A stretch of 64,000 bases of DNA from Fimbriimonadaceae bacterium (GTDB lineage: Bacteria > Armatimonadota > Fimbriimonadia > Fimbriimonadales > Fimbriimonadaceae), in contig JALHNM010000001.1 in the NCBI GenBank assembly GCA_022843485.1, positions 496,001 to 560,000 of the forward strand. The letters are read 5' to 3'. The translations under genes were made by a program, and so were the position numbers. Below are positions 8,632 through 55,286 of the stretch, piece after piece (position 1 is the first letter of the stretch; each line of letters starts with the position of its first letter). A model generated the notes under the pieces. That model was not told the origin of the DNA. It saw only the letters and a program-made list of their open reading frames with translations, and searched no databases.

Positions 8632-9609
8632 GTGCGCATCGACATGGAGCAAGCCTGGGGCCCGGCCAGCCCCCTCCCGTGGCTGCTGTCCCCCTTGGCG
8701 GGGCTCTACGGGTTGGGGTGGTGGGCGTACCAAGGGGTCTACGCCGCTGGCCTCAAGCGGGCGGCCGAACCGCACCGGCCGGTGGTCGTCGTGGGCAACC
8801 TCCTCGTAGGGGGAGCGGGTAAGACGCCGACCACGCTCCACGTCGCGGAGGTCGTGGGGCGGCTCGGTCGGGGCGTGGTCATCGGGATGAGCGGGTACGG
8901 CTCGCCCCGGTCGCGGTCGGCCAGCTTGGCCCCCGACGGGCCGCTCGATCCCCGCGAGTGGGGTGACGAGCCTGCGATGGTTCGGTGGCTGGCCCCCCAG
9001 TGGCCCCTTATCGTGGGTCGAAACCGGGTGGAGGCGGCCCGGATCGCGCACGGTCTCGAAGGGGCGCCCGTGCTCGTGATGGACGACGGGTACCAGCACC
9101 TCCGGCTCAAGACGCACGTCCGAATCCTCCTCGACGTGGTCGGGGGCAACCGGTTCTGCCTGCCTGCCGGGCCCTATCGTGAACCCCGGGGCACGGGGCT
9201 CCGTCGGGCGAGCCTCGTCCTCCCGAGCGAGGGCTTCCAGCTCTTCCGCGAGCCCCTGCGGTGGCTCGGCCCCGACGGTCGGGATCTGGCCCCCCCGCCG
9301 CCCGAGGTTCAGGTGCTCTGCGCCCTCGCCCGCCCCCACCGCCTGGTCCACAGCCTCGAGGCGAGCGGCCACAAGGTCGTCGCCGGCCGCTTGCTCCCCG
9401 ACCACGACCCGCTTGCGGCTGGTAACCTTTTCTCGGGCCTCGACCCTGCGGGCCCATTGGTCGTGACAGCTAAGGACTGGGTGAAGCTCCGGGATCGGAC
9501 GGACGTCGGGAGATGGGACGTGCGTATCGTCGATTATCGCGCGGTGGTCGAGCCGGGCCCGGCGTTCGAAGCGTGGATGAGGCGCGCGTTGGACGATGTC
9601 GACCCGTAA
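8632..9609 (+). CDS. lpxK: Tetraacyldisaccharide 4'-kinase LpxK
   Basis: This inner-membrane kinase phosphorylates the disaccharide-1-phosphate to make lipid IVA. It has 325 residues with an N-terminal membrane-proximal helix (LPWLLSPLAGLYGLGWWAYQ). The P-loop is VGNLLVGGAGKTPTTLHV (GGAGKT at 60-65) and the family motif DDGYQHLRLK is at 151-160. The start is GTG 8632; an ATG at 8644 is possible but lies far from the -10. It is the first gene of an LPS operon, and its 3' end overlaps the acyltransferase start by 14 bases. Confidence 0.95.
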   Translation: MRIDMEQAWGPASPLPWLLSPLAGLYGLGWWAYQGVYAAGLKRAAEPHRPVVVVGNLLVGGAGKTPTTLHVAEVVGRLGRGVVIGMSGYGSPRSRSASLAPDGPLDPREWGDEPAMVRWLAPQWPLIVGRNRVEAARIAHGLEGAPVLVMDDGYQHLRLKTHVRILLDVVGGNRFCLPAGPYREPRGTGLRRASLVLPSEGFQLFREPLRWLGPDGRDLAPPPPEVQVLCALARPHRLVHSLEASGHKVVAGRLLPDHDPLAAGNLFSGLDPAGPLVVTAKDWVKLRDRTDVGRWDVRIVDYRAVVEPGPAFEAWMRRALDDVDP

Positions 9610-10489
9610 GCGTCTGATCGCCGCCGCCTCGGTGTTCGGGGTGCAGAACCTCCAACGCTGGCTCTCGTCCAAGTCGCCGGACGAGGTCGAGGCGGCCGGG
9701 GCCCGATTCGGGCGGCTGCTCTACCGGGTCGGACGGAAGCGTCGGGATGTGGCCTTGCGCAACCTGGCCCTCGCGCTGCCCGAGCGCGGTCCCGTCGAGC
9801 ACGAGCGGATCGCCAGGGCGTGCTTCGAACACTTCGGTCTCGTCTCCGCCGACTTCCTCGCGAGCGCGCGACTCGAGGCCCAGGAGGTCTTGAGTTCGAT
9901 CCAGGTCGAGGGGGCTCACCACGTCCATGAGGCGATGGCCGCCGGGCGTGGGGCCTTGATCGTGACCGGGCACTTTGGGAACTGGGAGCGGGCCGCGAAG
10001 TACGTCTCCTTCTCGGGTTACCCCATCAACATGGTCATCCGGGACGCGAACCAGGAGGGGGTGAACCGGCTCGTGAACCAGTTGCGCGAGCACTCGGGGG
10101 CCAAGGTCATCCCCCGGGGTAACGCCGCGCGGCCGATCCTCGAGAGGCTCCGGAAGAACGAGACCGTCGCGATCCTGGTCGATCAGAACGCGGAGGACGC
10201 CTTCCTGCCGTTCTTCGGGCACCTAGCGGGGACCAACCTCGGCGCGGGGGTCCTGCACGAGCGCACCGGCTCGCCGGTCCTCCCCTGCTACTGCGTGCGG
10301 GTCGGGCCCCAGCGCTATCGAGTCTTCATCGACGACCCGATCGTGCCGGACCCGGGCTACCCGGTGAAGGGCGAGGGGACGCTCAGGGCCGTCAACCGGT
10401 TCCTTGAGAAGGCGATCCGGGAGTACCCGGAGCAGTGGCTCTGGTTCCACGACCGCTGGCGGAACGCCCGCGAGGCGGGGCTCCTGTGA
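9596..10489 (+). CDS. Lipid A biosynthesis late acyltransferase (LpxL/HtrB-like)
   Basis: This 297-residue membrane-associated acyltransferase adds secondary acyl chains to lipid A. The catalytic H-x4-E is in GHFGNWERAAKY (H126, E131). VDQNAEDAFLPFFG and GTNLGAGVLHERTGSPVLPC match the conserved core of the family. The order lpxK then lpxL fits consecutive steps of lipid A maturation. The stop TGA overlaps the next gene's GTG start. Which acyl position it serves cannot be told from sequence. Confidence 0.9.
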   Translation: MSTRKRLIAAASVFGVQNLQRWLSSKSPDEVEAAGARFGRLLYRVGRKRRDVALRNLALALPERGPVEHERIARACFEHFGLVSADFLASARLEAQEVLSSIQVEGAHHVHEAMAAGRGALIVTGHFGNWERAAKYVSFSGYPINMVIRDANQEGVNRLVNQLREHSGAKVIPRGNAARPILERLRKNETVAILVDQNAEDAFLPFFGHLAGTNLGAGVLHERTGSPVLPCYCVRVGPQRYRVFIDDPIVPDPGYPVKGEGTLRAVNRFLEKAIREYPEQWLWFHDRWRNAREAGLL

Positions 10490-42590: not shown

Positions 42591-43466
42591 TTAGGCGAAC
42601 AAGAGGCACCGCGCGGACACGGCGAGCTTTTCGAGCGGGGACGTCCGGGCGCGGCGGACGAAGACGTCGTACCCGCTTGCTTCGATCCGGTCCAGGATGC
42701 GCGAGTAGAGGATCCGGGCCGTCTTGACCGCGGGCCGCATCCGGGCGGGCAAGACCGCGATGCCGGGGTCGCTCGCGGCGTAGAGCGCCCTCGTCCGGGC
42801 GATCTCGAACCGCATGAGTTCCTCGAACGGCGGGGTCACGCGACCAGTGCGCAGGTCTCCTTCCGTCACGCCGAACCGGTCTAAGTCCTCGAGCGGTAGG
42901 TAGACCCGGCCCCTCCGAAGGTCCTCGCCGACGTCCCGCATGAAGTTGGTCATTTGCATCGCCTCGCCGAGGGCCGTGGCTTGCAGCCGGACGGCGGGGG
43001 TCTCCGGCGCCCCCGTCACACGGCACATCATTAGACCGACGGCCACGGCCGAGCCCCGCATATAGCCTTCGAGGTCGGCGTAGGTGGGGTATCGGTCCAC
43101 CGTCACGTCCGCCGCCATCGCGTCGAGGAAGCAGTGCGGCTCCTCGAGCGGGATGGCCGTGGCCCGGAGCACGTCCCCGAACGCGCGCATGACCGGGTGT
43201 TCGACCCGCTCGCCTCTGGCCGACCGGTCGAGCTGGGACCGGAAGTCGTCGATCAACCCGAGCCGCTCCGCTGGGCTGAGCTCCCCGGGGTTGTCGACCC
43301 ATTCGTCCGGCACGCGCACGAACCCGTACACGGCGTCGACCTGTCTCCGGACCGTCTCGGGGAACCGGCGGCTGGCCCAGTAGTAGGTGGTTCCGTACTG
43401 CCGGTGAAGCCTCCGGCACACGTCGAAGTCGGTCTGGGTCGCGGTTTGGGTCACGCCAACGGACAT
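42591..43466 (-). CDS. Phytoene/squalene synthase family protein
   Basis: This 291-residue head-to-head prenyl synthase joins two prenyl diphosphates. TTYYWASRRFPETVRRQVDA and VYGFVRVPDEWVDNPG hold the first acidic site (a DxxxD-like motif, here DEWVD). MQMTNFMRDVGEDLRRGRVY with LPLEDLDRFGV holds the second. This pattern is more phytoene synthase-like than squalene synthase-like. No desaturase or cyclase gene is nearby. ATG 43466 overlaps the stop of the upstream acyltransferase (TAATG). Confidence 0.88.
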   Translation of the reverse strand: MSVGVTQTATQTDFDVCRRLHRQYGTTYYWASRRFPETVRRQVDAVYGFVRVPDEWVDNPGELSPAERLGLIDDFRSQLDRSARGERVEHPVMRAFGDVLRATAIPLEEPHCFLDAMAADVTVDRYPTYADLEGYMRGSAVAVGLMMCRVTGAPETPAVRLQATALGEAMQMTNFMRDVGEDLRRGRVYLPLEDLDRFGVTEGDLRTGRVTPPFEELMRFEIARTRALYAASDPGIAVLPARMRPAVKTARILYSRILDRIEASGYDVFVRRARTSPLEKLAVSARCLLFA

Positions 43467-44233
43467 TACGAGCCATCCCCCGGCGGTTGTTGCCGCCCCG
43501 ACCGAAAACGGCTGCCCCCGGGGGCCCGGCGGACGTCCCATCGCTCGTTGACGTCGGGCGTCCCTGGAGCGAGGACATCCCATGGACCGTCGAGTCCGGC
43601 CCGCGTCGCCTCGAGCAGGCGGGCCACCTCGTCCCGAGCTCTCCCGCACGAGTCCGGCCCACTGGGCAGGGGCTCGCCGAGGGCGAGGAACGCCTCGGGA
43701 CGTTCGTGAAGGGACATGTCGTAGTGGATGGCGACCGGCACGACCCGGCAGCCGGGGACCTTCGATGCGACGAGCTCGAGGGCCCGGCCGAAGGGCAGCA
43801 CGTCCGGGGGCCGGTGGAGCACGGCTTCGGCGAACAAGACCAACGACCGTCCCTCCGAGCGCATCCGCCGGATGGTCATGCGCACCGTCCGTGCCCGGGC
43901 GGCGGGGTCGCCGGGCGGGTAGGGCATGCCCCCGACCTTCTCGAAGAGCGGGAAGGCCCCGAACTCCTCGATCCAATCGAGGCTCGGAACGCCGAGCGCG
44001 GTGACGAGGTGGAACATCAGGTAGCCGTCGTGCCAGCCGTGGTGGTTCGCGGCGAAGACGAACGGCCCCTCGCCGAGCGGCCCCGGCCGTCTCCAGTAGA
44101 CGTTGCGGAACCGTGCGCGGACCGTCCGCCGGATCATCGCCCCGACGGCCCGTCCCAGGAGCCCGTCCTCTTGCCGCACTGGCGGAGGGTACCGCCCGAG
44201 CCGGTAGACCCAGAGACGGGGCGGGTGTGCCAT
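43466..44233 (-). CDS. PlsC-like 1-acyl-glycerol-3-phosphate acyltransferase family protein
   Basis: The protein has 255 residues. The acyltransferase motif NHHGWHDGYLMF (H-x4-D) and SLVLFAEAVLHRPPDVLPFG (motif III) are clear; VPVAIHYDMSLHERPEAFLA follows. It is translationally coupled to the phytoene synthase gene, so it may acylate a carotenoid glycoside or a membrane lipid. ATG 44233 lies three bases from the divergent priA start. A shorter start at Met 33 (about 44137) is possible. Confidence 0.78.
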   Translation of the reverse strand: MAHPPRLWVYRLGRYPPPVRQEDGLLGRAVGAMIRRTVRARFRNVYWRRPGPLGEGPFVFAANHHGWHDGYLMFHLVTALGVPSLDWIEEFGAFPLFEKVGGMPYPPGDPAARARTVRMTIRRMRSEGRSLVLFAEAVLHRPPDVLPFGRALELVASKVPGCRVVPVAIHYDMSLHERPEAFLALGEPLPSGPDSCGRARDEVARLLEATRAGLDGPWDVLAPGTPDVNERWDVRRAPGGSRFRSGRQQPPGDGS

Positions 44234-47428: not shown

Positions 47429-48667
47429 GTGCGTGCCGAAGTCGTGAGCGTAGGGACGGAGTTGCTCCTCGGGCAGATCGTGGACACGAACGCGGCCGAG
47501 CTCGGTCGGGTGTTCGCCGAGTGCGGGGTCGTCCACACCCACCGGCAGACGGTCGGCGACAACCTCGAGCGTCTCACCGAGGCGCTACACTTGGCGTTGT
47601 CGCGGTCGGACGTGGTCGTGACGATCGGCGGGCTCGGGCCGACCGAGGACGACCTCACCCGGGACGGGATCGCGGCCGCGCTCGGGTCGCCGCTCGTCCA
47701 CGACCCGGAACTCGAGCGAACGGTCCGCGAGGTCTTCGCCCGCCGACGGCTCCCTTGGGTCGAGTCCCAGCTTCGCCAGGCGCAGCGCCCCGAGTGCGCC
47801 CGGCCCCTGCCGAACCCGAACGGGACCGCCCCTGGCTTCATCGCCGAGAAGGACGGGAAGGCGGTCGTGGCCCTGCCGGGGCCGCGGGGCGAGTTCGTCC
47901 CGATGCTGGAGGGGCCTGTCCGCGAGTTCCTAGCCCGGCTGGGGGGCGGCCGGACGCTCCGCTCGCGGCTCCTCCGCATCGCGGGGATGGGCGAGTCGGT
48001 GGTCGAGCACCGTCTGGGCGAACTCATGCACGGGAGCGACCCCACCGTCGCCCCGTACGCAAAGCCGGGCGAAGTCCACCTTCGGGTCTCGACGATGGCC
48101 GGCTCAGAGGCCGAGGCCGAGGCACGGCTGGCACCGCTCGTGGCCGAGATCCGGGACCGGCTCGGGGATGTGGTTTACGGCGAGGGGGACGAGACCTTGG
48201 AGAGCGTGGTCCTCGGGTTGCTGCAGCGGTCCGGTGCGACCTTGGGCCTGGCTGAAAGCTGCACCGGCGGCGGGCTCGGGGCCAGGGTCACGAACGTCCC
48301 AGGGTCGTCGCGCGCCTTCGTCGGGGGGTTCGTGACGTACTCGAACGAGGCCAAGGTCAGGCACCTGGGCGTGCGAGAGGAGACCCTGGCGGCCCACGGG
48401 GCTGTCTCGGCGGAGACCGCCGCCGAGATGGCGCTGGGTGCCCGCGAGCGGCTCGGGGCGACGTGGGCGGTGAGCGTCACTGGGGTCGCGGGGCCGGACG
48501 GCGGCACGGAGGCCAAACCGGTCGGGCTTGTCTACATCGGAATCGCGGGCCCGGGAGGCGTCGAGACCCACCGCCATCTTTTCCCCGGAACCCGCGAGAC
48601 CGTCCGGCTGCGGAGCGCCCAGATGGCCCTCGTCGAGCTTCGCTCGGCTCTGATCGCCCGGGTATGA
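47429..48667 (+). CDS. cinA: CinA-family competence/damage protein with NMN deamidase domain
   Basis: The protein has 412 residues. The N-terminal MoCF-like domain (1-170) shows VSVGTELLLGQIVDTNAAEL and VVTIGGLGPTEDDLTRDGIA. The C-terminal PncC domain (about 255-410) shows LGLAESCTGGGLGARVTNVP, FVGGFVTYSNEAKVRHLGV and SVTGVAGPDGGTEAKPVGLV. CinA-type enzymes salvage NMN/ADP-ribose in pyridine nucleotide recycling. Its stop overlaps the photolyase gene start (ATGA). Confidence 0.94.
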   Translation: MRAEVVSVGTELLLGQIVDTNAAELGRVFAECGVVHTHRQTVGDNLERLTEALHLALSRSDVVVTIGGLGPTEDDLTRDGIAAALGSPLVHDPELERTVREVFARRRLPWVESQLRQAQRPECARPLPNPNGTAPGFIAEKDGKAVVALPGPRGEFVPMLEGPVREFLARLGGGRTLRSRLLRIAGMGESVVEHRLGELMHGSDPTVAPYAKPGEVHLRVSTMAGSEAEAEARLAPLVAEIRDRLGDVVYGEGDETLESVVLGLLQRSGATLGLAESCTGGGLGARVTNVPGSSRAFVGGFVTYSNEAKVRHLGVREETLAAHGAVSAETAAEMALGARERLGATWAVSVTGVAGPDGGTEAKPVGLVYIGIAGPGGVETHRHLFPGTRETVRLRSAQMALVELRSALIARV

Positions 48668-50181
48668 CGCCGATCGCCGTCGTCCTCGGGGATCAACTCT
48701 TCGAGGGCCTCCCTGGTCTGCCTCCGGGTGCGCTCGTGTTCATGCGCGAGGACTGGGGGCTGTGCACCCGAACCCGTCACCACAAGCAGAAGGTCGTCCT
48801 GTTCCTAAGCGCCATGCGGCACTTCGCCGAGGCCCTTCGGGCGGCCGGGCGGGAGGTCGTGTACCAGCCGCTCGACTCGCGAGGCGGCTATGGCGAGGCG
48901 GTCGAGGCGGTGTGGCGAGCGAGAGGGCGACCGCCGCTCGTGGGCTATCGCCCTGCCGACCGGTTCTTCCTCGACGAGATGGGGGCCTTGCCGGTGGCCC
49001 TCGTCGAGTCGCCCGGCTTCCTCACCAGCGACGACGTTTGGGCCGAGTTCCGCCGCCGAAGCGCACGGGGGACGATGGGTGACTTCTACACCCTCCAGCG
49101 TCGGGCGCTCGGATTGTTGATCGAGGGGGGCGGCCCCGTGGGCGGATCTTGGAGCTTCGACGCCGAGAACCGTAAGCCGATGCCGAAGGGTCTTGCCCCG
49201 CCGCCCGTGCCCTGGGTCGAGCCCGACGCGACGACGCTCGAAGTTGTCGAACTCGTGGAGCGGCTGTTCCCCGACCACCCGGGGGATGCCCGGGCGTTTC
49301 GCTGGCCGGTGACTCGTAAGGACGCGCTTGGCTGGCTCGATCACTTCACATTGACTCGCCTTGCCGACTTCGGGCCGTACGAGGATGCCCTCTCGCGCCG
49401 AGAGGCCACGCTGTGGCACAGCCTCCTTTCCCCGCTCTTGAACTGTGGCCTCCTGACCCCGGGGGAGTGCGTATCGGCTGCGATCCGGGCGTACGAGGGC
49501 GGTCTTGCCCCGTTGAACTCGACGGAGGGGTTCGTGCGGCAGATCGTGGGCTGGCGCGAGTTCGTGAAGCGCATTGCGGACGAGGGCTCCGCCGCCCTCC
49601 GCGACCGGAACGCCCGATTCTCCCGCGTGCCGTTCCGCCCGGGAGACGCGCCAGAGGAACGAAACTTCATGGGGCACACACGTCGTCTCGGCCCGGCCTG
49701 GTGGGACGGAACGACCGGATTGCCTCCGTTCGACGAGGTGGTCTCCCGCCTTCACCGCGTCGGCTGGTGCCACCACATCGAGCGCCTCATGGTGGCGGGC
49801 TCGCTCATGGTCATGTGCGAGGTCCATCCGCAGGAGGCGTACCGGTGGTTCATGGAGCTCTTCGTCGACTCGGCGGACTGGGTGATGGGCCCGAACGTCT
49901 TCGGGATGAGCCAGTTCTCGGACGGAGGTTCGTTCGCGACGAAGCCGTACGTGAGCGGTTCGGCGTACGTGCTCAAGATGAGCGACTACCCGCGCGGGCC
50001 GTGGTGCGACGTGTGGGACGGGCTCTACTGGCGGTTCGTCGATCGCAACCGCGAGTGGCTCGGGTCGAACCCGCGGACGTCGCAGGCGGTGCGGGCGTTC
50101 GGGCGGTTGGAGCCCGTCCGCCGCGACCGGGTGCTGGCCGCGGCGGAGGGGTTCGTCGGTCGGGTGACGCTTACGGGGTGA
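48664..50181 (+). CDS. FeS-BCP/PhrB-type photolyase-cryptochrome family protein lacking cluster cysteines
   Basis: This 505-residue protein of the deoxyribodipyrimidine photolyase-related group has IAVVLGDQLFEG at the N-terminus, then MREDWGLCTRTRHHKQKVVL, and the FAD domain with TEGFVRQIVGWREFVKRI, GWCHHIERLMVAGSL and MGPNVFGMSQFSDGG. Where family members carry a C-x2-C and a later Cys for a [4Fe-4S] cluster, this protein reads KMSDYPRGPWCDVWDGLYWR. The ligands appear to be absent. It is expected to repair UV lesions (6-4 type) or act as a blue-light sensor. Confidence 0.88.
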   Translation: MTPIAVVLGDQLFEGLPGLPPGALVFMREDWGLCTRTRHHKQKVVLFLSAMRHFAEALRAAGREVVYQPLDSRGGYGEAVEAVWRARGRPPLVGYRPADRFFLDEMGALPVALVESPGFLTSDDVWAEFRRRSARGTMGDFYTLQRRALGLLIEGGGPVGGSWSFDAENRKPMPKGLAPPPVPWVEPDATTLEVVELVERLFPDHPGDARAFRWPVTRKDALGWLDHFTLTRLADFGPYEDALSRREATLWHSLLSPLLNCGLLTPGECVSAAIRAYEGGLAPLNSTEGFVRQIVGWREFVKRIADEGSAALRDRNARFSRVPFRPGDAPEERNFMGHTRRLGPAWWDGTTGLPPFDEVVSRLHRVGWCHHIERLMVAGSLMVMCEVHPQEAYRWFMELFVDSADWVMGPNVFGMSQFSDGGSFATKPYVSGSAYVLKMSDYPRGPWCDVWDGLYWRFVDRNREWLGSNPRTSQAVRAFGRLEPVRRDRVLAAAEGFVGRVTLTG

Positions 50182-51301: not shown

Positions 51302-51455
51302 CCTGGTCTCCTTGAGGAACTGGCGACCCAACGGTCGTCCGAACGATTCTGGCGGAGGAATGTTAACACGATGATAACGCCTGTGTCTCCGGTCGCCCCT
51401 GCCCGGCGGGGGCACCGGGAACGGATCGGGTAGATTCGCAGGGTCAGCGCGGACC

Positions 51456-52328
51456 ATGCCGGACCCGATCCTCGCCTACCGCTCCCTCTTCGTCTCCGAC
51501 GTCCACCTGGGCTCGGCCGGGTGTATGGTCGAAGAGTTCCAGGCCTTCCTGAACTCGGTCGAGTGCGAGTACCTGTACCTGGTCGGGGACGTGGTCGACC
51601 TCTGGGTCACGATGAAGGCTGGGAAGTGGCGCCAGGAGCACACGAACGCCGTCAGGTCGATCCTGAGTAAGTCCCAGGAGGGCACGTTGGTCTTTTTCAC
51701 CCCGGGGAACCACGACGCGTTCCTGCGCAGGCTCAACGGCTCCGAGTTCGGAAACATCCGGGTGGCCCACTCGTTCGTCCACACGACCGTGGACGGGAAG
51801 CGGCTGATGGTCGTCCACGGGGACCTCTTCGACAAGTCCGTCCGGTTCGTGCCGCTCGCCTGGTTGGCCGCGTGGTTCTACGAGGGGCTCACCGTGCTCA
51901 ACGGGCTTTGGAACGCGCGTCGCAAGGAGGCGGGCCAGGAGCAGACCGACTTCAGCTCCTCGGCCAAGCGGCGCCTCAAAAAGTACGTGAGCCGCAAGAG
52001 CGACTACGAGGGCGTCCTCCTGAGTCAGGCGTTGGACGGGGGGCTTGACGGCGTCGTCTGCGGCCACATCCACCGCCCCGCCATCACGCTCGACGAGGAC
52101 GGCGGGCTCTACGTCAACACGGGGGACTGGGTCGAGCACGGGACTGCCGTGGTCGAGCACTTCGACGGACGGCTCGAACTCCTCCTCTGGAAGGACCTCA
52201 AGAACCAGATAGGCGACCCTGACCCCGAGATCGAACCGCGGCCGCCGAGCAAGCGCCGTCGCCTCTTCCGCGCCCGCCGGGGCGGACTCTTCGGATGCGT
52301 TCCACGACCTACGAAGCGCTCGGCGTAA
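51456..52328 (+). CDS. LpxH-like metallophosphoesterase (UDP-2,3-diacylglucosamine hydrolase type)
   Basis: The protein has 290 residues. It has the full calcineurin-like set: SLFVSDVHLGSAG, YLVGDVVDLW, FFTPGNHDAFL, VVHGDLFDK and VVCGHIHRPA, ending YVNTGDWVEH. This order is that of LpxH/LpxH2, which cleave UDP-2,3-diacylglucosamine to lipid X, filling the step between LpxA and LpxK in this window. A basic C-terminal tail (KRRRLFRARRGG) may aid membrane association. Confidence 0.85.
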   Translation: MPDPILAYRSLFVSDVHLGSAGCMVEEFQAFLNSVECEYLYLVGDVVDLWVTMKAGKWRQEHTNAVRSILSKSQEGTLVFFTPGNHDAFLRRLNGSEFGNIRVAHSFVHTTVDGKRLMVVHGDLFDKSVRFVPLAWLAAWFYEGLTVLNGLWNARRKEAGQEQTDFSSSAKRRLKKYVSRKSDYEGVLLSQALDGGLDGVVCGHIHRPAITLDEDGGLYVNTGDWVEHGTAVVEHFDGRLELLLWKDLKNQIGDPDPEIEPRPPSKRRRLFRARRGGLFGCVPRPTKRSA

Positions 52329-53077
52329 GGCGGATCTACCGCGTGATCGCGGGGATCGTCGGCGAGGAGCTCCTGCCCCCCGTCGGCACCCCCCTTGAGG
52401 GGGTCAGCCGCTCCCAGCTCGAGGAGCGCCGCACCGCCACCCGCTACTTCGAGAACGCGAACTACGCCCGGGCGGCCTGCTACATCCCGCACATGGCGAG
52501 CTTCATCGCCCACGCCCACGTCACCGGCGCGGCCTACACCTCAGGGCTGCTCATCCTCCACGGGCTCGTGTCCATGCTCGAGCGGTACAAGAGGCAGCTC
52601 ATCGACGCCCATCTGGCCGAGGCACCGGAGTCCGTCCCGACCCCGCACGTCGGCGACGAGCCCGACGCGCACCACTCCGGGCTGGCCGACCTCTGGTACC
52701 GACCGAAGCGGTTCGAGACCGAGCGGTTCTACCGGCTCATCGGGATGGAGGCTTTTCGCGCGTTCGTAGGGTGGGTCATGCGCACGCTCACCTATGGGTT
52801 CTCAGGCAAACGGGTCGTCACGATGCCCGTACCCACCCGGGCCCAGGCCGTCGAGTTCGAGCGCGAGACTCGGCTGTCGGAGGGGGTCCACCTCGTGGGG
52901 GTAGCGCTGACCCTGCCGACCGTCGTCTTCGCTTGGCAGCAGCCTTGGATCGCGGTATCGATATGGGCGACGGTAGTCCTGTTCGGCGAGATCGGCCTCA
53001 CTGTGCTCCAGCGCTTCCACCGGGCCCGGCTCTGGCCGGTCGTGTCGCGGGTCCTCGCCCGGAAGGCGAAGACGTGA
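52295..53077 (+). CDS. Membrane protein with two tandem CrtO-like domains
   Basis: The protein has 260 residues. The C-terminal half (about 145-255) resembles the glycosyl-diaponeurosporenoate acyltransferase CrtO family: RFYRLIGMEAFRAFV, ERETRLSEGVHLVGVALTLP and LTVLQRFHRARLWPV. The N-terminal half repeats the same plan: LGVRRIYRVIAGIVG, LEERRTATRYFENANYARAA and LVSMLERYKRQL. Start lies inside the lpxH-like gene and the stop overlaps the GT28 start (GTGA). The three genes probably build one glycolipid. The CrtO assignment is from memory of the family and is tentative. Confidence 0.6.
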   Translation: MRSTTYEALGVRRIYRVIAGIVGEELLPPVGTPLEGVSRSQLEERRTATRYFENANYARAACYIPHMASFIAHAHVTGAAYTSGLLILHGLVSMLERYKRQLIDAHLAEAPESVPTPHVGDEPDAHHSGLADLWYRPKRFETERFYRLIGMEAFRAFVGWVMRTLTYGFSGKRVVTMPVPTRAQAVEFERETRLSEGVHLVGVALTLPTVVFAWQQPWIAVSIWATVVLFGEIGLTVLQRFHRARLWPVVSRVLARKAKT

Positions 53078-54204
53078 GGACCCTGTTGCTCTCGGCTTCG
53101 ACGGGCAACGGCCACATGAGCGCGGCGTTCGCGGTGGAGCGGGAGCTGCTCGCGATGGGCCACGAGGCGCGGACCGTCGACGTGCTCGACTACACCGCCC
53201 CTGGGTTCCGTCGCTGGTACCGCGGTGGCTACGAGACGCTCGTGCGTCGCATGCCTGCCGTTTGGGGTCTGCTCTACCGCGCTTCCGACCGCCCTAGGTT
53301 CGCGTACCGGTTCCAGACCGGCCTCGACCTCCGCTTCGTCGAGAAGGTGCGGGCGGTGGTCGCGGCCGAACGGCCGGACTGGGTCGTGTGTACCCACTCG
53401 CTCCCCCAGCCCTCGCTCGAGCGGTGGCGGTCAGAGGTCGGCTACCGGGTCGGGGTGGTCGTGACGGACCTCTACCCCCAGCTCATGTGGCTACGTGGTG
53501 CCCCTGACCGGTACTTCGTGCCGGTCGAGTGGACTCGGGACAAGCTCCTGGCCCGCAACCCGGCCCTGGGCGACAAGGTCGAGGTCACGGGGATGCCGAT
53601 CGATGCCCGGTTCGGCGATCGGCCCGAGCGGGGGGAAGCGAAACGCGCCCTCGGGCTCGACCCGTCGCGGCCGGTCGTGTTGCTCACGGTCGGGGGGATC
53701 GGGGGCGGGCCGATGGCCACCGCTGTCCACGCGGTGGCGTCGGTCGGTCGCGGGGCCCAGGCGGTGGCCGTCTGCGGCCGCAACGAGGCGGCCCGTCTCG
53801 CCGTCCAACGCGCGGTGCAGTCCCGGCCCGGATTCCTCGTTCGCGGCCACGTGCCGATCGACGAGATGATCGGCCTCGTCCATGCCGCCGACGTGATGGT
53901 GGCCAAGCCGGGCGGGCTCACCACGTTCGAGGCGCTAGCGGCCGGGGTGCCGTTCCTGGTCTACCGACCGTTCCTCATCCCCGGCCAGGAGGAAGGCAAC
54001 GGCGACTTCCTCCAGGAGAAGGGCGTCGGGGAGTGGGTGGAGGGCCCCGCCGACCTCGCCCGACGGCTGGCCGCGCTCCTCGACGACCCCGACCGGCTCG
54101 CGGCGATGGGGTCGGCCGCCCTGACCTACGCGAGGCCCGACGCGGCCCGGCAGATCGCGGAGTCCCTCGCGCGACTGAGCGGCCCCGCCGTCGTGCGGGG
54201 CTAG
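53074..54204 (+). CDS. GT28 (MGDG synthase/UgtP-like) glycosyltransferase
   Basis: This 376-residue GT-B enzyme has the N-terminal MGDG-synthase domain (TLLLSASTGNGHMSAAFAVE, VCTHSLPQPSLERWR, VVVTDLYPQLMW) that binds diacylglycerol-type acceptors. The GT28 C-terminal domain (VVLLTVGGIGGGPMATAVHA, VAKPGGLTTFEALAAGVPFL) binds the UDP-sugar. MurG is less likely because the motifs follow the UgtP/MGDG pattern. GTG 53074 overlaps the upstream TGA. Confidence 0.85.
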   Translation: MRTLLLSASTGNGHMSAAFAVERELLAMGHEARTVDVLDYTAPGFRRWYRGGYETLVRRMPAVWGLLYRASDRPRFAYRFQTGLDLRFVEKVRAVVAAERPDWVVCTHSLPQPSLERWRSEVGYRVGVVVTDLYPQLMWLRGAPDRYFVPVEWTRDKLLARNPALGDKVEVTGMPIDARFGDRPERGEAKRALGLDPSRPVVLLTVGGIGGGPMATAVHAVASVGRGAQAVAVCGRNEAARLAVQRAVQSRPGFLVRGHVPIDEMIGLVHAADVMVAKPGGLTTFEALAAGVPFLVYRPFLIPGQEEGNGDFLQEKGVGEWVEGPADLARRLAALLDDPDRLAAMGSAALTYARPDAARQIAESLARLSGPAVVRG

Positions 54205-54242: not shown

Positions 54243-55286
54243 ATGCGCCTGACGCACCTTGTGGCCTGCGCCGGTTGAGCGAGCAAGCTGGGTCCGACCC
54301 AGTTGGCCGAGGTCCTCGGCCGTTTGCCGCGATCCGCGAACCCGAGCCTGCTCGTCGGTTTCGAAACGTCCGACGACGCGGGGGTCTTTCTGTTGCCTTC
54401 CGGAGCCCACCCCCCGGGATCTGAGGCGGAAGTTGAAGGGGGAGACTCCGGGCGGCGACTCGCTCTCGTCCAGACGATGGACTTCTTCACCCCGATCGTC
54501 GACGACCCTTACGCCTACGGTCAGATCGCGGCGGCCAACGCGCTGAGCGACGTCTACGCGATGGGCGGGACTCCGCTCACGGTGATGAATATCGCCTGCT
54601 TCGACCCGACGGCGGCCCCGGCCGAGGTCTGGGCGGGGGTGCTACACGGGATGCACGACAAGACGGTCGAGGCGGGGGCGGTCGTCGTCGGCGGCCACAC
54701 CGTCGACGACCCGATGCCCAAGTTCGGGATGAGCGTCACCGGGCTGATCGACCCGGCCCGGGTGCTTTCGAACGACCATGCCCTCCCCGGCGACGACCTT
54801 TGGCTGAGCAAGCCGCTTGGGACCGGGGTGCTGACCACCGCCGCAAAGTTCGACAAGGCCAGCCCCGAGGAGCTCGACGAGGGCGTGAGGGTGATGGCGA
54901 CGCTGAACGCGGCGGCGGCCGAGGCTGCGCTCGCCAGCGGGGCCCGCTGCGCGACCGACGTGACGGGCTTCGGCCTTCTCGGCCACCTCTGGAACGTGGC
55001 CCGGGCCAGTGGGGTCGGGATCGAAATCGACACCGCCTCGCTCCCGGTGCTCCCCGGCGTCGAACGGATGATCGGCGAGGGCTGTACGACCGGCGGGGCC
55101 ACGCGGAACCTCGACTCGCTTGGCTCGGCGGTGTCGTTCGATCCGGAGGTGCCGGGCTGGCTAAGGGCCCTCGTGGTCGATCCCCAGACCAGCGGCGGCC
55201 TCGCCGTGTTCTCGCGTGCCCCGGTCGCCGGGAGCGTACGCATCGGCCGGGCCTTCGGGGGCCCACCACGGCTTGTCGTCCGGTGA
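54243..55286 (+). CDS. selD: Selenide, water dikinase, itself a selenoprotein (UGA at codon 12)
   Basis: This 347-residue enzyme makes selenophosphate, the donor for selenocysteine synthesis. Reading from ATG 54243 gives MRLTHLVACAG, then TGA (54276-54278), then ASKLGPTQLAEVLG. The UGA falls on the catalytic Cys/Sec, followed by the conserved Lys of the CAGUxxK motif. Downstream motifs are typical: LVQTMDFFTPIVDDPYAYGQ, IAAANALSDVYAMGGTPLT, VVVGGHTVDDPMPKFG, TDVTGFGLLGHLWNVARAS. Without recoding, only a truncated protein lacking the active site would be called. The organism must also carry selA/selB and tRNA-Sec elsewhere. Confidence 0.93.
54279..54307 (+). promoter_or_regulatory. Candidate bacterial SECIS element in selD
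   Basis: Directly after the UGA, GCAAGCTGGGT (54283-54293) pairs with ACCCAGTTGGC (54297-54307) with one mismatch. The tip lies 16-18 bases from the UGA, the distance expected for a bSECIS. A second hairpin, GGCCGAG/CTCGGCC, follows at 54305-54321. Confidence 0.6.

Follow-up and report, generated by a model that had tools for sequence, protein, structure and literature searches.

Organization of the locus

The DNA analysed here is a stretch of 64,000 nucleotides (the window) from a Fimbriimonadaceae genome of 2.96 Mb in 20 contigs. ORF calls in the window outlined a cassette of three genes on one strand, in which each gene starts before the preceding one ends, with overlaps of 34 bases between the phosphatase and membrane-protein genes and of 4 bases (GTGA) between the membrane-protein and transferase genes. 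These coordinates confirm the end-to-start overlap of phosphatase, membrane protein and glycosyltransferase genes reported in a preliminary description of this DNA, and the three reading frames are real and translationally coupled. The features of the cassette, with the evidence for each, are as follows:

51456-52328, plus strand: PlcP-type metallophosphoesterase (predicted phospholipase C), 290 aa; PF00149, identities and tree
52295-53077, plus strand: tandem CrtO-family membrane protein, 260 aa; PF18927, hhalign comparison of the halves and AlphaFold2
52295-52693, plus strand: diverged N-terminal CrtO-like half; invariant Asn56 opposite the invariant His199 of the C-half
52694-53074, plus strand: C-terminal CrtO half; invariant Glu141, Glu196, His199, Arg240, Arg243 and Arg245
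53074-54204, plus strand: MGDG-synthase/UgtP-type (GT28) glycosyltransferase, 376 aa, GTG start; PF06925 and PDB matches

Directly 3' of the cassette lies selD (54243-55286, plus strand), encoding selenophosphate synthetase (TIGR00476, 341 bits). An in-frame TGA at 54276-54278 occupies codon 12 of this gene, at the expected Cys/Sec active-site residue, and selD probably encodes a selenocysteine-containing SelD. A deoxyribodipyrimidine photolyase-related protein (PF04244, 181 bits; FAD_binding_7) is encoded at 48664-50181, also on the plus strand.

The cassette phosphatase is of the PlcP type

The product of the first gene matches the Metallophos domain (PF00149) with 40.8 bits. It had been described as LpxH-like, but its scores against the LpxH equivalog TIGR01854 (45.5 bits, cut-off 190.35) and against PRK05340 (54.7 bits, cut-off 134) fall far short of the LpxH cut-offs. 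As controls on the same two profiles, Escherichia coli LpxH obtained 388.9 and 364.3 bits, and a Sinorhizobium meliloti protein 38.9 and 38.1 bits. The best matches in a search of a plasmid collection were PlcP-type proteins, among them the S. meliloti protein (38.6% identity, E 1e-49), while an Aeromonas LpxH was returned with an E value of 2e-8. Alignment identity was 37.0% with the S. meliloti protein and 22.1% with E. coli LpxH, and reached 42.0 (Thiodictyon), 40.1, 40.6 and 36.1% with four other PlcP-type plasmid proteins. The gene for the S. meliloti relative adjoins those for a LuxR-type regulator and an AHL synthase, a neighbourhood that fits the sinI/sinR-SMc00171 region and hence plcP (SMc00171).

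Residues D15, H17, D45, N85, H121, H204 and H206, presumably the metal ligands of a calcineurin-type site, are invariant in 25 aligned proteins, but they are also present in LpxH and therefore do not discriminate between the two families. The window protein carries a GNHD motif, as opposed to GNRD in LpxH. In a tree of 63 rows, covering about a third of the genome-contig loci together with selected ones, the two LpxH sequences were placed on a separate branch (100/100) from the 61 PlcP-type rows. The 28 Armatimonadota rows in this tree grouped with a support of 65/100, lending weak support to a single origin of the phosphatases in this phylum. By identity, profile score and tree, the cassette phosphatase belongs with the PlcP-type phospholipase C homologues. 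Public records name relatives of this type 'UDP-2,3-diacylglucosamine diphosphatase', an annotation error that the present assignment would correct. Two relatives encode a second, weaker PlcP paralogue (G004:C16:3738-4481, E 2.0e-64; G033:C1:16336-17079, E 1.7e-64).

PlcP is the phospholipase C of Sinorhizobium that takes part in lipid remodelling during phosphate starvation. PMC4796936 and PMC8528852 describe it as supplying diacylglycerol from which lipids free of phosphorus are built, with its gene often joined to a glycosyltransferase gene. With a phosphatase of this type, the general notion of a glycolipid cassette would become one of a phospholipid-to-glycolipid remodelling pathway.

Lipid A biosynthesis offers a different context, in which the phosphatase would be the missing LpxH and the cassette would modify lipid A precursors. 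The genome does encode LpxC, LpxB and LpxK, with the cassette phosphatase as its only match to TIGR01854, and LpxI is present in 0 of 61 related genomes. Among relatives, LpxC was detected in 98 of 101 genomes, LpxB in 56 of 61 and LpxK in 59 of 61, and the search of these 61 genomes for LpxI, or for LpxH above its cut-off, returned none. However, the TIGR01854 matches, present in 14 of the 61, all correspond to cassette proteins and none attains the cut-off, while LpxC is encoded in 46 of the 47 genomes without a match. The presence of LpxC in cassette-free genomes implies that these make lipid A with an unrecognised hydrolase and can do so without the cassette. This distribution led us to reject a lipid A role, as did the identities, profile scores and tree, all of which set the phosphatase nearer PlcP than LpxH; we regard such a role as improbable. 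A genuine lipid A locus lies elsewhere in the window, where lpxK (8632-9609, plus strand) overlaps a lipid A acyltransferase gene (9596-10489, plus strand; PF03279).

The glycosyltransferase resembles diacylglycerol glycosyltransferases

The third protein scored 64.5 bits against MGDG_synth (PF06925; gathering score 25), in agreement with its initial designation as a GT28/MGDG-type glycosyltransferase, here of the MGDG/UgtP type. Its nearest solved structures are diacylglycerol glycosyltransferases, with PDB matches to a processive diacylglycerol beta-glucosyltransferase (E 3.5e-27) and to chloroplast MGD1 (E 7.3e-22). The homology runs end to end for MGD1 and over two thirds for the bacterial enzyme, and the sugar-nucleotide motifs GxGH and GQExxN align with both. 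Against the diglucosyl diacylglycerol synthase equivalog the transferase obtained 138.8 bits, a profile score that assigns it to the same superfamily but lies below the equivalog cut-off of 500.

The membrane protein is a tandem CrtO duplication

The 260-residue protein encoded by the second gene matches CrtO (PF18927) with 63.9 bits, above the Pfam gathering score of 27.3, and the same profile was matched by 24 of 24 aligned homologues at E<=0.1. The preliminary description had proposed that this protein consists of two similar halves, each resembling CrtO. Self-alignment of the halves from the single sequence was not significant, with 282 of 2000 shuffles performing as well; being too weak to prove a duplication, it was replaced by a comparison of family profiles. 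Using hhalign, the N-half and C-half profiles built from 24 homologues gave a collinear alignment of 107 columns, with a probability of 97.3 and an E value of 1.8e-11; it scored 68.5, against 16.4 for the best of 200 column-shuffles and 18.6 for a reversed profile. It is hence the profile comparison, and not the single-sequence self-alignment, that bears out the two similar halves and identifies the membrane protein as a true tandem duplication.

The resemblance to CrtO stood for the C-half, which on its own scored 54.6 bits in the window protein and matched in 24 of 24 homologues, but was not significant for the window N-half, which remained below the cut-off (13.6 bits, E 0.084) and yielded no match to CrtO when cut slightly differently. 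Among the homologous N-halves, 8 of 24 matched CrtO at E<=1 (best 3.6e-7), and in divergent members the beginning of the N-half, for example RRFEKSGRFYERLGIR in L009, still resembles that of the C-half. The tandem architecture is present in the 24 aligned members. The single-domain form was seen once, in a comparator from Monoglobus (Bacillota; 182 aa, 95 bits), which was the one weak match in plasmid searches for further CrtO proteins. At one locus (L133, genome G226) the tandem gene is broken across three frames, probably as a result of frameshift errors.

In the alignment of 24 homologues, the C-half presents eight invariant residues (Glu141, Gly150, Phe188, Glu196, His199, Arg240, Arg243 and Arg245) and the N-half only Gly10 and Asn56, with mean column identities of 42% and 30%, respectively. 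In an ungapped pairwise alignment of the halves Asn56 falls opposite His199, and the N-half is devoid of the Glu-x-x-His of the CrtO family. The Monoglobus protein keeps both E-x2-H and QRYNRPR (QRYxRxR), and these motifs, common to the C-half and to this single-domain CrtO, point to the C-half as probably the active one.

Structure prediction of the 260-residue protein with AlphaFold2 (mean pLDDT 91.4, pTM 0.85) likewise yielded a helical model with two similar halves, in which helices 11-22, 39-72 and 76-107 match helices 151-167, 182-214 and 219-259. Foldseek returned no match for this model at E<=0.001, the best VIA-align match (Z 8.0, 72 residues) did not exceed what is common for helical bundles, and a PDB profile search with the CrtO protein produced chance-level matches to ribosomal proteins only. 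Without a significant PDB match the fold does not confirm the active site, and the predicted fold says nothing about function.

The CrtO family name also invites a reading in which the cassette serves to modify pigments, the tandem protein adding an acyl group to a carotenoid glycoside as happens in staphyloxanthin; a phytoene/squalene synthase is indeed encoded in the window (42594-43430, minus strand). Across 61 genomes, however, SQS_PSY occurs in 9 of 14 genomes with CrtO and in 21 of 47 others (Fisher p 0.24, ignoring relatedness), and the five CrtO genomes with no SQS_PSY match include four that are 97-99% complete and one at 92%. Furthermore, pigment synthesis would leave PlcP without a function, and the transferase encoded alongside is one of the diacylglycerol type. 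Given that CrtO is not associated with SQS_PSY, a carotenoid role was rejected, and we deem it even less probable than one in lipid A synthesis. The synthase gene adjoins one encoding a PlsC-type acyltransferase (43466-44209, minus strand).

The three genes are inherited together

A single-protein search detected the tandem CrtO in 27 of 101 relatives. At 21 of the 27 corresponding loci (L002-L028) all three genes lie together; four of the others are truncated at a contig boundary (L023, L025, L026 and L028), and in two PlcP is not adjacent (L022 and L024). Profile searches of the 101 genomes identified CrtO in 27, PlcP in 26 and the glycosyltransferase in 29, the last comprising 26 within the family and three weaker matches outside it, in genomes with no CrtO or PlcP match. 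The only genome with one of PlcP and CrtO but not the other is G058, where the CrtO gene runs off the contig end; in G027 and G046 PlcP is present, although on another contig. For the co-occurrence of CrtO and PlcP over 101 genomes, a Fisher test that ignores relatedness gave p 2.9e-23. In these 101 relatives the three genes are therefore present together or not at all, and the triplet is conserved, which the preliminary description had named as a check.

Across the phylum, PF18927 was found in 38 of 251 genomes. We retrieved 29 further loci, which partly repeat earlier genomes and leave out eight genomes with a match as well as G284, with an open frame of 203 residues. All three genes are present at 25 of them, and CrtO and the glycosyltransferase only at four (L143, L149, L151 and L152). 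These loci extend the triplet to f12 and f28, two other family groups within the phylum. A broader set of 86 loci (L038-L123) comprised 80 PlcP loci on genome contigs and six from plasmid records, one of these an LpxH control. An Agt-like ORF was present at 51 of these loci (one being the query's own), a GT28-type transferase at five and a tandem CrtO at three, all of them family members. Three non-Armatimonad loci, two from Phycisphaerales and one from Noviherbaspirillum, combine plcP with a GT28 transferase without CrtO.

The upstream region

Promoter and terminator scans at the cassette found nothing. On inspection by eye, -10-like hexamers (gggTAGATTc or cGTACAATa) recur before plcP in L002, L004-L008, L013, L015, L016 and others, which suggests that the operon may have its own promoter. 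The E. coli-type Pho box pattern, which may not be that of this phylum, had no occurrence in the window, and no Pho-box-like site was conserved across 34 upstream stretches, although the box of the phylum may differ. About 90 bases 5' of plcP lies a near-palindrome, TTAACACGATGATAAC (51362-51378), present in one of the 34 upstream stretches; at one mismatch, its pattern is expected 0.04 times in the window. A TTAAC-type repeat, sought upstream of plcP as a Pho box, is confined to one of 34 distinct upstream stretches, that of the genome carrying the window.

A proposed lipid-remodelling pathway

The three-gene pathway is real, conserved and coherent, with one new component. We propose that the operon is the form which the PlcP-glycosyltransferase system of lipid remodelling takes in Armatimonadota, with a CrtO-acylated product, and assign this reading a probability of roughly 60%. 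Judging from homology, the PlcP-type enzyme would cleave a membrane phospholipid into diacylglycerol and a phosphorylated head group, and the MGDG/UgtP-type transferase would then glycosylate the diacylglycerol with at least one hexose drawn from a UDP-sugar. In the last and least certain step, the membrane-embedded tandem CrtO could acylate the sugar or otherwise finish the glycolipid, giving a phosphorus-free acyl-glycosyl-diacylglycerol. The N-half may serve in this protein as a permanently attached partner with no catalytic function, as though the two subunits of an ancestral CrtO dimer had become fused.

We infer the acylated glycosyl lipid from the name of the CrtO family. In the staphyloxanthin precursor, the glucose C-6'' is the position at which CrtO acts (PMC5587911). 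An acyltransferase role is ascribed to the tandem protein because Staphylococcus CrtO has that role, and acyl transfer would thereby be carried over by analogy from the staphyloxanthin precursor to a diacylglycerol glycoside. The fuller proposal is more tentative, and we give it somewhat less than even odds: in Armatimonadota, a phosphorus-free acyl-glycosyl-diacylglycerol with three chains would take the place of phospholipids and would be produced jointly by PlcP, the GT28 transferase and CrtO in the form of a fused pseudo-dimer.

Alternatively, PlcP and the transferase might make a plain glycosyl-diacylglycerol, with the tandem CrtO acting not as an acyltransferase but as a scaffold, or as a partner presenting the substrate, that keeps both enzymes at the membrane. 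PlcP-glycosyltransferase pairs function elsewhere without CrtO, as reported in PMC8528852, and loci with such pairs but no CrtO were also identified here (L062, L069 and L094). The loss of Glu-x-x-His from half of the tandem protein and its strict co-inheritance with PlcP and the transferase would also fit a scaffold. However, the C-half keeps the motifs that it shares with a single-domain CrtO, which argues for retained catalysis, and we consider a pure scaffold unlikely, if less so than the lipid A reading.

Were the acylated-glycolipid pathway correct, lipid remodelling that spares phosphate would reach a phylum for which we found no report, and the CrtO family would gain a role outside carotenoids and a new substrate class. 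The pathway would then stand as a new branch of lipid remodelling in bacteria. As an all-or-none triplet of three small genes, the cassette also makes its lipid product directly testable.

Comparison with known systems

Searches of one literature collection found no report combining plcP with Armatimonad-, in line with the earlier view that such a glycolipid had not been described for this group; they found no paper naming PF18927 either, and nothing on the cassette in the literature on CrtO, Fimbriimonadia lipids or Fimbriimonas lipids. LpxH shares with the cassette phosphatase the metallophosphoesterase family and the metal-binding residues. UgtP/YpfP and plant MGD1 are homologous to the cassette transferase and, to our knowledge, are not joined with PlcP or CrtO. 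The staphyloxanthin operon crtOPQMN likewise encodes a CrtO-family protein together with a glycosyltransferase; its CrtO is single-domain and its transferase unrelated to that of the cassette. In contrast to the cassette, this operon acts on a carotenoid acid substrate and includes no phospholipase.

The PlcP-Agt lipid renovation system of Sinorhizobium, Pseudomonas aeruginosa (PA3219/PA3218), Phaeobacter and SAR11 likewise joins a PlcP-family gene to a diacylglycerol glycosyltransferase gene. The cassette differs from it in four respects: its transferase is not Agt but of the GT28 MGDG/UgtP type, the two genes flank one for a tandem CrtO that is inherited with them, no Pho box was found, and it belongs to a different phylum. 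The pairing of PlcP with a glycosyltransferase is thus already known in Proteobacteria, whereas the CrtO member and the use of the system by Armatimonadota appear to be new.
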